From positions 1-64,000 of the forward strand of contig CALGJQ010000044.1 of assembly GCA_937928545.1 (NCBI GenBank): 64,000 bases of DNA, in the 5' to 3' direction. Positions 37,237-39,950 of the stretch are shown piece by piece. The translations under genes were made by a program, and so were the position numbers. Within the stretch, counting starts at the first letter, position 1; each line of letters starts with the position of its first letter. The notes under the pieces are model-generated. The model was not told the DNA's origin. It searched no databases and saw only the letters and a list, made by a program, of their open reading frames with translations. Source of the DNA: an uncultured Verrucomicrobiales bacterium (GTDB taxonomy: Bacteria; Verrucomicrobiota; Verrucomicrobiia; Verrucomicrobiales; Akkermansiaceae).

Positions 37237-37248
37237 GTCTGATTTTTT

Positions 37249-37369
37249 ACGGAGCTTGGACTTTAGTCCGAGTACACCGTGCGACCTCTAAGGCATGCAT
37301 CGCTTGAGGATCACTCGGACTAAAGTACCCAAGGGGCATGCCATCCAAGCTCCGCGCTCCGTAGCGGAG
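37249..37369. repeat. Structured dispersed repeat, copy 1
   Basis: An imperfect long inverted repeat: ACGGAGCTTGGA and CTTTAGTCCGAGT at 37249-37273 match, in reverse complement, ACTCGGACTAAAG (37313-37325) and TCCAAGCTCCG (37344-37354). GGCATGC and GCATGCC are also paired, and a small CTCCG/CGGAG hairpin ends the unit. About 50 bases of the right arm (from TTGAGGATCACTCGG to CCAAGCTCCG) recur at 63850-63900. Confidence 0.85.
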
Positions 37370-37417
37370 TTGACTTTTGGAAGTGACAAATCTCTCCCGC
37401 TGGGTTTGTCTCGTCTC

Positions 37418-37465
37418 GTGAAGCTCACTTTGGCTCTTCTACTAGGATTGCGACTCGGACTCTAA
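37418..37465 (+). CDS. Leucine-rich leader peptide of leuA (leuL-like)
   Basis: GTG at 37418 opens 15 codons ending in TAA at 37463-37465. The product is MKLTLALLLGLRLGL: eight of fifteen residues are leucine, encoded by CTC, TTG, CTT and CTA codons. It lies 141 bases before leuA, and the stop codon sits in a hairpin that begins inside the last Leu codons (37450-37482). This is the organisation of a classical ribosome-mediated attenuator sensing leucyl-tRNA. No Shine-Dalgarno sequence is visible, which is usual in this window. Confidence 0.7.
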   Translation: MKLTLALLLGLRLGL

Positions 37466-37482
37466 TCAGAGCCCGCAGTCGC
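37450..37482 (+). promoter_or_regulatory. Hairpin overlapping the Leu leader peptide
   Basis: GCGACT, CGG and CTCT on the left pair with AGAG, CCG and AGTCGC on the right, giving an interrupted stem with the leader stop codon near its loop. A ribosome stalled on the Leu codons would cover the left arm. No strong U-run follows it, so it is more likely a pause or anti-structure than the terminator; a weaker stem near 37511-37535 precedes TTGTTTT. Confidence 0.5.
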
Positions 37483-37605
37483 TGTGTTTCCTTTGGGCCA
37501 TTTCCTAACTCCGTCATTTTTGACTCGTCGGATTGTTTTCAAAGAGCACAGCACATCTTAGAGAGGACTTGGTGTGATTCATGGAATCCAAAAATAACCG
37601 AGACG

Positions 37606-39276
37606 ATGAAATCCGACTCTATTAGCAAATATCGCCCGTTTCCGGCTGTCACTTTGACGGACCGGACATGGCCCGACCGTGTCATTACCGAAGCCCCGAT
37701 CTGGTGCTCCGTCGACCTACGCGACGGCAATCAGGCTCTTCCCATTCCGATGAGTGTGGAAGAGAAGCTGGAGATGTTTGACCTCCTCGTGAGTGTCGGG
37801 TTTAAGCAAATCGAGATCGGTTTTCCTTCGGCGAGCGATACCGAGTTCGCCTTTATGCGTCGTTTGATTGAGGAAAATCGCATTCCGAAAGATGTTACGG
37901 TGCAGGTGTTGGTGCAGACGCGGCGGCATTTGATCGAGCGGACCTTTGAGGCCATCAAAGGGGCTCATCGCGTGGTGGTGCACATTTACAATTCCACGAG
38001 CACGCTGCAGCGTCGCGTGACCTTTGGTGATGCCTCGCGCGAGGACATCAAGGCGATTGCGGTGACGGGAGCAGAGGTGGTGAAGGAGTTGGTGCCGACT
38101 ATTCCTGAGACCGAAGTGGTGCTGCAGTATTCGCCGGAGAGTTTTTCGGATACTGAGTTGGACTTTGCCTTGGAGTGCTGTGAAGCGGTGATTGAGGTTT
38201 GGGAGCCGACTCCGGAGAAGAAGTTGATTTTGAACCTGCCGGCGACGGTGGAATGGACCACGCCAAACGTGCACGCCGATCAGATCGAGTGGATGTGCCG
38301 GAATGTCTCGAAGCGGGACTCGGTGATTATTTCACTGCATACTCACAACGACCGGGGAACTGGGGTTGCCGCGACTGAGCTGGGCTTGATGGCCGGAGCC
38401 GATCGGGTGGAAGGAACGCTTTTTGGCAACGGAGAGCGGACCGGGAATCTCGATATCGTGATCGTGGCTTTGAACATGAATAGTCACGGGATTGAGACCG
38501 GTTTGGATTTCTCAAATCTCTCTAGTCTGCGCGAAGTCTATGAGCGGACCACTCGTATGACGGTGCCGGATCGCCAGCCTTATGCGGGTGAGTTGGTCTT
38601 TACCGCTTTTTCGGGAAGTCATCAGGATGCCATTAAGAAGGGGCTGGATCGGCGTGCTAAAGAAGAGGCTGAGAAGTGGGGGGTGCCTTATCTCACGATT
38701 GATCCGCACGATATCGGGCGCAGCTACGAGGCGATTGTGCGTATTAACTCGCAGTCCGGTAAGGGCGGGGTGGCTTACATCATCGACCAAGAACACGGCT
38801 ACGATCTTCCGAAGACGATGCATCCGCAGGTTGGCAAAAGGGTCTATGATCTGGCTGACCAGCGAGGTGAGGAACTGTCTTCCGAGGAGGTTGGGAAGGT
38901 TTTCTTTGAGGAGTTTGTGAATGTCTCATCAGAGATGGTTTTGGAAGACTACGAACTCGATCACAGCAGCGGGGAGCGTGGTGAAGTGGCTTGCCGCGCG
39001 GTGATTGCTAGAAATGGGAAGCAAGAGACCGTCGAGGGAGTCGGGAATGGTCCGATCAACGCCTTTGTGCAAGGGCTTGAGAAAGCAGGACTCAAAGATT
39101 TTACGCTCACTGATTATCGGTCCCACGCGGTGCATGGTGGCTCGAGCTCCGATGCGGCCGCTTATGTGCAGTTGCGGAAGGACGATGGCTCCATTCTCTG
39201 GGGAGTGGGCGTTGATCCTTCGATCGAGATGGCTGGCGTGAAGGCGCTGGTTTGTGCGTGGAACCTGCTTCGGTAG
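37606..39276 (+). CDS. leuA: 2-isopropylmalate synthase (long form)
   Basis: LeuA condenses acetyl-CoA with 2-oxoisovalerate, the committed step of leucine synthesis. Motifs present are CSVDLRDGNQALP, FKQIEIGFPSAS, HTHNDRGTGVAATELG with metal-binding histidines and GNGERTGNLD, and a C-terminal LeuA allosteric domain (about residues 430-556) with GVGNGPINAF. At 556 residues it is of the long, type 2 group. Control is probably through the leader peptide at 37418. It ends at a terminator shared with a convergent gene. Confidence 0.96.
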   Translation: MKSDSISKYRPFPAVTLTDRTWPDRVITEAPIWCSVDLRDGNQALPIPMSVEEKLEMFDLLVSVGFKQIEIGFPSASDTEFAFMRRLIEENRIPKDVTVQVLVQTRRHLIERTFEAIKGAHRVVVHIYNSTSTLQRRVTFGDASREDIKAIAVTGAEVVKELVPTIPETEVVLQYSPESFSDTELDFALECCEAVIEVWEPTPEKKLILNLPATVEWTTPNVHADQIEWMCRNVSKRDSVIISLHTHNDRGTGVAATELGLMAGADRVEGTLFGNGERTGNLDIVIVALNMNSHGIETGLDFSNLSSLREVYERTTRMTVPDRQPYAGELVFTAFSGSHQDAIKKGLDRRAKEEAEKWGVPYLTIDPHDIGRSYEAIVRINSQSGKGGVAYIIDQEHGYDLPKTMHPQVGKRVYDLADQRGEELSSEEVGKVFFEEFVNVSSEMVLEDYELDHSSGERGEVACRAVIARNGKQETVEGVGNGPINAFVQGLEKAGLKDFTLTDYRSHAVHGGSSSDAAAYVQLRKDDGSILWGVGVDPSIEMAGVKALVCAWNLLR

Positions 39277-39350: not shown

Positions 39351-39950
39351 CTAAGGAACGACGACGATGGGAGTTCCTTTTTTGACCTTGGAGTAGATCT
39401 TGGGGATGACGGCGTGTGGGGTGCGGACGCAGCCACTGCTTCCTGGGTAGCGATGAACGCTGCCTGAGCCGTGCATGCCGATGCCGTCGCCGGTCATGCG
39501 CATCCAGTATGGGAGAGAGGCTCCGACATATTTGTCGCGAGGTCCGCGGTATTTGCGACGGTCACCGCCGTGGACGCGTCGGCCCTTATAGAATGTGGTG
39601 CCGAAGATGGTGGAGCGTTTGTCGACGATCTTTTCGGTGATGGGGTAGCGACCGGTTGGGGTGCGCTTTCCGGCACGACCGGTGCAGACTGGGGTGTCAA
39701 TGGCGACGGTTTCCTCAGGGCCAACGAGGAGTTGAGCGCGCTGATCGCTGAGATCGACCCGGATTTTCGTGTTCGCGGTGGTGGCGGAAGCGTAGGCGGC
39801 GTCGTTTTGATAAACCGCAGAGCCGCTGCGGTAGTCAGACTTGCCCTTGAACGAGTTGTAGGAGTTGGCTGACTTCAGGGGAGAGCTAGAACAACTAGCA
39901 AGGAAGAGAGCGCCGAAGGTGAGGGCGATGGTCAGAGCGAATTTTTTCAT
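39351..39950 (-). CDS. YkuD L,D-transpeptidase lipoprotein
   Basis: A 199-residue lipoprotein (Cys20 after FGALFLAS). The YkuD catalytic signature HGSGSVHRYPGSSGCVRTP holds the nucleophile cysteine (SGCxR). Upstream motifs are TKIRVDLSDQRAQLLVG and TPTGRYPITEKIVDKRSTIFG. L,D-transpeptidases form 3-3 cross-links in peptidoglycan or attach proteins to it. It is one of two adjacent paralogs that share about half of their motifs; this one is the downstream copy. Confidence 0.9.
   Translation of the reverse strand: MKKFALTIALTFGALFLASCSSSPLKSANSYNSFKGKSDYRSGSAVYQNDAAYASATTANTKIRVDLSDQRAQLLVGPEETVAIDTPVCTGRAGKRTPTGRYPITEKIVDKRSTIFGTTFYKGRRVHGGDRRKYRGPRDKYVGASLPYWMRMTGDGIGMHGSGSVHRYPGSSGCVRTPHAVIPKIYSKVKKGTPIVVVP

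Follow-up and report, generated by a model that had tools for sequence, protein, structure and literature searches.

Leader ORF and hairpin upstream of leuA

The window, by which we mean the whole 64,000-nt stretch of DNA analysed, carries a leuA gene whose upstream region contains a short Leu-rich ORF and an RNA hairpin. The 15 codons of the ORF (GTG AAG CTC ACT TTG GCT CTT CTA CTA GGA TTG CGA CTC GGA CTC, followed by TAA) encode MKLTLALLLGLRLGL*, and 140 nt separate its stop codon from leuA. Eight of the 15 residues are leucine, three of them in a row at codons 7-9, as the original prediction had stated from the DNA alone. The hairpin that it had placed over the end of the ORF, with the stop codon near the loop, was recovered by folding (−17.6 kcal/mol), the T of the TAA being paired and both A lying in the loop. 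The GTG is kept as the leader start in the genus alignment, and an in-frame TTG is present further upstream. The first gene-like ORF after leuA (39351-39950) lies on the opposite strand. The features of the locus, with the evidence for each in brackets, are as follows.

37383-37388, forward strand: −35-like hexamer GTGACA, 35 nt before the leader start (genus alignment and spacing)
37406-37411, forward strand: weak −10-like TTGTCT, a weak match that would put the transcript start at about 37418 (sequence and spacing)
37418-37465, forward strand: leader ORF MKLTLALLLGLRLGL* with GTG start, probably leaderless, the start codon being +1 (alignment, shuffles and promoter spacing)
37439-37444, forward strand: leader codons 8-9, CTA CTA (codon counts)
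37450-37482, forward strand: stop-codon hairpin GCGACTCGGACTCTAATCAGAGCCCGCAGTCGC, which may be an intrinsic terminator or a pause hairpin (folding and terminator score)
37483-37494, forward strand: U-rich tail TGTGTTTCCTTT; the tails of relatives read, among others, TTTTTGTTCTTT and TGTTTTTCTTT (alignment and terminator scan)
37490-37544, forward strand: partly conserved second segment that holds the previously suggested weak terminator and a weak inverted repeat (CTTTG..CAAAG; relatives have CCAAGG) (alignment and terminator scan)
37606-39276, forward strand: leuA, 2-isopropylmalate synthase of 556 aa, the presumed controlled gene (ORF, protein and family searches)

Recurrence of the Leu-rich leader in the genus and the phylum

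Chance had been judged an improbable origin of the leader, and an equally Leu-rich ORF did appear in only two of 100 dinucleotide shuffles of the window; its recurrence in relatives is far stronger evidence. A protein search returned 80 named leuA loci, nearly all titled Verrucomicrobiota, and a family search located leuA in 167 of 260 genomes, from which 30 matches were taken as loci and 80 further upstream regions were fetched by position. After removal of unusable and duplicate sequences, 142 distinct leuA upstream regions were kept; L025, with too short an upstream, and L055, L082 and L117, whose gene start was not located, were left out before counting. A significant Leu-rich short ORF, defined as one whose Leu content is reached in no more than 5 of 100 dinucleotide shuffles, was present in 63 of the 142 upstream regions, and 39 of these 63 were matched by no shuffle. 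The remaining 79 fell below the threshold; they include L022, the clade whose preceding gene apparently extends near to leuA, and some marginal genus members.

Within the window's genus, alignment revealed the leader ORF in 20 of 21 distinct upstream regions, and 15 of the 21 also passed the shuffle threshold; members that still carry the ORF below it include L001 (9 of 100 shuffles) and L100 (25 of 100). The window and its 19 close relatives could be aligned with the ORF kept in all except L004, and L100 is an extra carrier from the genus. L004 retains the leader promoter and the flanks, with the reading frame broken.

The leader peptides vary by group, from LLLGLRLGL to NWT..LLVLRLGR, LNLELLLLLLLA-like peptides in Roseibacillus and ILRGLLLLPALLLGLATR-like peptides in Haloferula and its relatives. 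The largest group besides the genus comprises 29 leaders, mostly with LATR-like ends. A phylum-wide survey was also carried out, in which 387 genomes were searched, leuA was found in 191, and 54 upstream regions were examined, of which 50 were readable and four were dropped because the start was not located. A significant Leu-rich ORF was found in 20 of the 50 readable regions and the other 30 were below threshold; examples are MKNRFNSLELLLLAG (L351) and a leader ending in MQMTTHRNSLLMGALLILLPLLP (L314). The 142 and 50 upstream regions sample part of the Verrucomicrobiota leuA genes. Lack of a conserved Leu-rich ORF in relatives had been named at the outset as grounds for refutation, and the comparison did not refute the leader: the ORF recurs with its Leu codons, at a similar position and promoter spacing, and within the genus the stop-codon hairpin recurs too.

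Several upstream regions have other layouts. Seven (L122, L135, L140, L141, L147, L170 and L175) have no leader and, by eye, a preceding gene that apparently ends near leuA, and three (L115, L116 and L124) seem to contain degenerate leader remains. A GVTR-ending peptide before leuA in several genomes was rejected as a leader, being apparently the tail of the upstream gene. Opitutaceae-like sequences (L075-L080, L338, L343, L344 and L347) have a recurrent short ORF before leuA that is poor in Leu and contains the motif LRLS/T, and a GCACGATC..GATCGTGC-like hairpin is present in several of these upstream regions.

Coding signal and codon choice of the leader

The ratio of nonsynonymous to synonymous polymorphism (pN/pS), calculated for the 19 genus leaders of equal length (L016, of a different length, was excluded), was 0.48 in the reading frame, compared with 0.80 and 1.45 in the other two frames. 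A value of 0.48 or lower was obtained in 15 of 300 column shuffles, so the synonymous bias is modest. For codons 2-10, which lie outside the hairpin, the ratio was 0.46. Codon 9 was CTA or TTA in 16 of the 19 genus leaders. Across 71 leaders, CTA made up 51 of 443 Leu codons, compared with 1.9% of 2209 in the leuA genes, and CTG accounted for 14% of Leu codons in leaders and 33% in leuA genes; in these counts the leaders are related, the events are not independent, and some of the ORFs are too short or too long.

Promoter spacing and a probable leaderless start

A match of at least five of six bases to TTGACA was located 34-39 nt before the start codon, mostly at 35-37 nt, in 75 of 92 leaders, compared with 80 of 4600 shuffles; in-frame starts were chosen partly by the −35 score, so the spacing counts of some leaders are not independent, and 13 leader starts were set by hand by motif, that of the window by position, while 21 phylum leaders were also hand-picked. 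TGACAA is invariant across the 20-sequence genus alignment. A Shine-Dalgarno-like motif was seen in one of the 71 leaders checked. Given the usual sigma-70 spacing, a −35 box this far upstream suggests that transcription begins at the leader start codon, and the window leader is probably leaderless, with its transcript starting at the GTG.

Specificity of the leader for leuA

The same kind of search was applied to control genes of the genus, with a threshold of three of 60 shuffles. An ORF rich in the fitting amino acid was found upstream of trpE in 1 of 21 cases, ilvB in 0 of 20, hisG in 0 of 22 and leuC in 2 of 20, one of the two positive leuC upstream regions containing masked bases. The loci used were 21 of 26 for trpE, 20 of 24 for ilvB, 24 of 25 for hisG and 21 of 24 for leuC, partial, poor or late matches being omitted; three were too short (two hisG and one leuC), and for trpE and hisG the position of the gene start is approximate. 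A covariance model built on the leader matched exactly once in 21 of the 26 genus genomes (E≤0.1), with no further hits. Nineteen of these matches lie 29-61 nt upstream of leuA, and the remaining two, from genomes outside the training set, also precede the leuA start. G239, the genome of L004, gave no match to the model. The Rfam models, including Leu_leader, gave no match at the window's leader even at E≤5.

The stop-codon hairpin and its relation to terminators

When positions were ranked by the stem that could enclose them, the stop codon came in the top 5% in 16 of 20 genus leaders and 6 of 12 leaders of the LRLGR group, in none of the LATR (0 of 29), Roseibacillus (0 of 3) or Opitutales-like (0 of 7) leaders, and in 3 of 21 phylum leaders. 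Across the genus, the pairs of the hairpin form in 90.8% of cells, compared with at most 45% when the structure is slid. Covariation in the hairpin was not clearly above that of shuffles (35 of 500 for pairing and 113 of 500 for double changes, with two pairs showing a double change); compensatory swaps were seen from G-C to C-G in L016, from A-U to G-C in L026 and from U-A to C-G in L007 and L015.

Terminator strength was estimated with the d'Aubenton-Carafa score. The stop hairpin scored above −20 in 15 of 20 genus leaders, compared with 3% of 160 shuffles, and above 0 in eight of them, with a maximum of +21.6 in L011 and L014; in the other 12 it was below 0 or unscored. For the window the score was −23.4, with the tail TGTGTTTCCTTT. 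The view that no strong U-run follows the leader thus describes the window itself and fails for the eight genus leaders with positive scores. The weak terminator that had been suggested near 37511-37535 (37503-37532 in our analysis) scored poorly, at −45.3, and the stop hairpin is the better candidate. Whether this hairpin acts as a terminator rather than as a pause site we regard as an about even question.

Outside the genus, scores above 0 were obtained for two of three Roseibacillus leaders, one of 12 LRLGR leaders, none of 29 LATR leaders and none of seven Opitutales-like leaders. In several LATR leaders a hairpin with a pyrimidine-rich tail lies further on, but in no case does it score above 0. 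Strong terminators (scores 35-58) were identified 46-74 nt past the leader stop in four of 21 distant phylum leaders, and in none of 105 shuffles. These four, L351, L353, L354 and L340, have an attenuator-like layout, the Leu-rich leader being followed by a strong hairpin and 6-9 T.

Proposed mechanism and alternative explanations

The recurring ORF, the kept Leu codons, the promoter spacing, the genus hairpin with its U-rich tail and the specificity for leuA were all obtained by computation, and together they point to ribosome-mediated leucine attenuation of leuA transcription, which we consider likely. Such control had been proposed in the original prediction and gains support from the recurrence in relatives, the response to leucine itself being presumed. 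RNA polymerase would start at the GTG, or one or two bases off, and a 70S ribosome would initiate at the 5′ end of the RNA. When leucyl-tRNA is plentiful, the ribosome would clear the Leu codons and leave, the hairpin over the last codons and the stop would then fold behind RNA polymerase, and hairpin and U-rich stretch would together stop most transcripts once they are about 65-77 nt long. When leucyl-tRNA is scarce, the ribosome would stall at Leu codon 9, 11 or 13, on the 5′ arm of the hairpin, and by preventing its full folding would let transcription continue into leuA.

The positions at which a stalled ribosome would matter were estimated by a folding model that puts the ribosome's 3′ edge 15 nt beyond the P site. 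With stalls at codons 5-8 the modelled hairpin stayed mostly whole, the largest loss being from 8.0 to 5.7 expected pairs at codon 8 in L016. A stall at codon 9 removed 16-63% of the hairpin pairing, one at codon 11 left at most 2.8 expected pairs and one at codon 13 left none, which would make codons 9, 11 and 13 the ones that exert control. A modelled ribosome at the stop codon also covers the hairpin, and termination would therefore need quick release, because a ribosome waiting there would block folding as well. The RNA polymerase path, at about 77 nt, gives a ribosome little time in which to initiate and translate as far as codon 9. Taken together, the cover by a ribosome at the stop and the short polymerase path imply either fast release or a hairpin that first pauses the polymerase, and it is because of these weak points that attenuation is held to be likely and the terminator role of the stop hairpin evenly balanced.

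In the foremost alternative, leucine attenuation would be of the trp type, with the stop hairpin serving as a pause hairpin (1:2) and the decision being made by the weaker downstream helices at 37490-37544. In the window the first hairpin carries the stop codon in its loop, and the distance from the start codon to the far side of this hairpin is about 65 nt; both features resemble the E. coli trp leader. The partly conserved second segment after the hairpin in the genus fits this layout, as do the distant leaders with separate strong terminators. For one of these, L340, folding predicted a switch: an antiterminator is favoured when the ribosome stalls within the run of Leu codons, the terminator when it has reached the stop; the folds of L351, L353 and L354 retained the terminator with a stalled ribosome. 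Within the genus, no downstream hairpin scored as a terminator (best −25.9). The test for antiterminator pairing, which covered the ORF against the post-stop region, gave genus duplex energies no better than those of shuffles (median 50.5 of 100), and individual helices were significant in 2 of 20 genus, 2 of 12 LRLGR, 1 of 29 LATR and 0 of 7 Opitutales-like leaders, although in all three Roseibacillus leaders. On this balance a trp-type decision appears rather doubtful for the window. A pairing between early leader codons and the post-stop region that had been noticed by eye (TTGGCYC with GGGCCA) was discarded on these results for all groups but Roseibacillus. The Roseibacillus-type leaders L019, L020 and L021 have a helix of 11-14 bp between the leader start region and a post-stop segment, which reaches into the start codon and could hide it.

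It is unlikely that the leader acts through leucine-dependent Rho termination or polarity, in which departure of the ribosome would expose a pyrimidine-rich leader to Rho and a stalled ribosome would prevent loading. The post-stop region looks pyrimidine-rich by eye, and Rho has been proposed for terminator-less cys leaders of Actinobacteria (PMC1262725), but the presence of U-tracts right behind the hairpin is difficult to account for in this way. Masking of the leuA start by the leader, that is, translational control, is very improbable. A precedent of this kind is the actinobacterial LEU element, for which pairing between Leu codons and the leuA Shine-Dalgarno has been proposed (PMC1262725), and removal of the 5′ part of the leader shifted the openness of the leuA start in several genus members, although downwards (from 0.65 to 0.40 in L005). 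Nested folding predicted an openness that differed by at most 0.03 between a codon-9 stall and a ribosome at the stop in 18 of 20 genus leaders (0.66 and 0.66 in the window), the exceptions being L100 (0.65 and 0.44) and L012 (0.36 and 0.26), so the control of leuA translation that had been suggested finds no support from folding. That the ORF is an untranslated by-product of a conserved RNA structure is scarcely plausible, since, although part of the ORF sits within the hairpin, Leu-rich peptides of other sequence recur in other groups and the synonymous bias extends to the codons outside the hairpin.

Beyond attenuation at this locus, we tentatively propose, at somewhat less than even confidence, a broader scenario in which a leucine attenuator is present across much of Verrucomicrobiota, its leaderless, Leu-rich +1 leader kept and its terminator rebuilt several times. 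In the window's genus it would then be reduced to a two-state device of about 77 nt that does without an antiterminator, a stalled ribosome blocking a terminator that overlaps the stop codon and the end of the ORF.

Comparison with known leader peptides

To our knowledge, ribosome-mediated attenuation has been described mainly in Proteobacteria, Actinobacteria and Firmicutes, and the leader reported here would add a phylum. The leuL leader of E. coli, represented by Leu_leader in Rfam, has a run of Leu codons with the rare CUA before leuA. The window leader has these traits in common with it; the E. coli leader differs in being longer and in having a Shine-Dalgarno sequence and a separate terminator.

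The closest known systems are the leaderless Leu and ilv leaders of Actinobacteria. Streptomyces lividans has leaderless LeuL leaders before leuS (MRAVRLLLSEPR) and leuA (MRFGLLLLSCRGEGL), as described in PMC8079986. Like the window leader, these are short and Leu-rich and open the transcript of the gene that they precede (leuA or leuS), a transcript start that is mapped there and deduced here, and the leuS leader is likewise followed by a hairpin and a U stretch (PMC8079986). Streptomyces belongs to another phylum, and its leuA leader is described as being without a typical terminator (PMC8079986). The ilvBNC operon of Corynebacterium glutamicum also has a leaderless leader peptide, with a near-start hairpin proposed to pause the polymerase; that system responds to branched-chain amino acids through an experimentally supported three-hairpin switch (PMC11857589), whereas no antiterminator was identified in the genus studied here.

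Actinobacterial ilvB leaders, in which the ORF overlaps a candidate terminator, are similar in layout; they precede ilvB rather than leuA, and their experimental support is called ambiguous in PMC1262725. The LEU element shares a Leu-rich ORF before leuA with the window and is described as a pseudoknot between Leu codons and the leuA Shine-Dalgarno (PMC1262725), whereas nested folding, by which it was compared here, gave no leucine-dependent masking. Further reported examples are the leuA leader of C. glutamicum with four consecutive Leu codons (PMC4046766), a leucine-rich attenuator peptide for branched-chain amino acid synthesis in Staphylococcus aureus, a member of another phylum (PMC5794164), and the leaderless polycysteine leaders of mycobacteria cited in PMC13236596. 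None of the papers listed by searches of the open-licence literature, made partly by phylum, reported a leader-peptide attenuator of Verrucomicrobiota, and the Lopatovskaya survey (cited through PMC4833913) might hold cases.

The sequence variants are numerous enough to trace how the terminator of an attenuator can change as its sensor is preserved. The compact, probably leaderless design could be tested in cultured Roseibacillus or Haloferula, the leader being present in Roseibacillus persicicus (L021) and Haloferula rosea (L032).

An inverted repeat at 37245-37370 adjoins the leader promoter on its upstream side, with the arms CGGAGCTTGG/CCAAGCTCCG and ACTTTAGTCCGAGT/ACTCGGACTAAAGT. Its inner motif occurs in 42 copies in the genome (22 exact and 20 with one mismatch; control 0) and is thus a dispersed repeat. 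The sequence ACTCGGACT is common to this inverted repeat and the leader hairpin.
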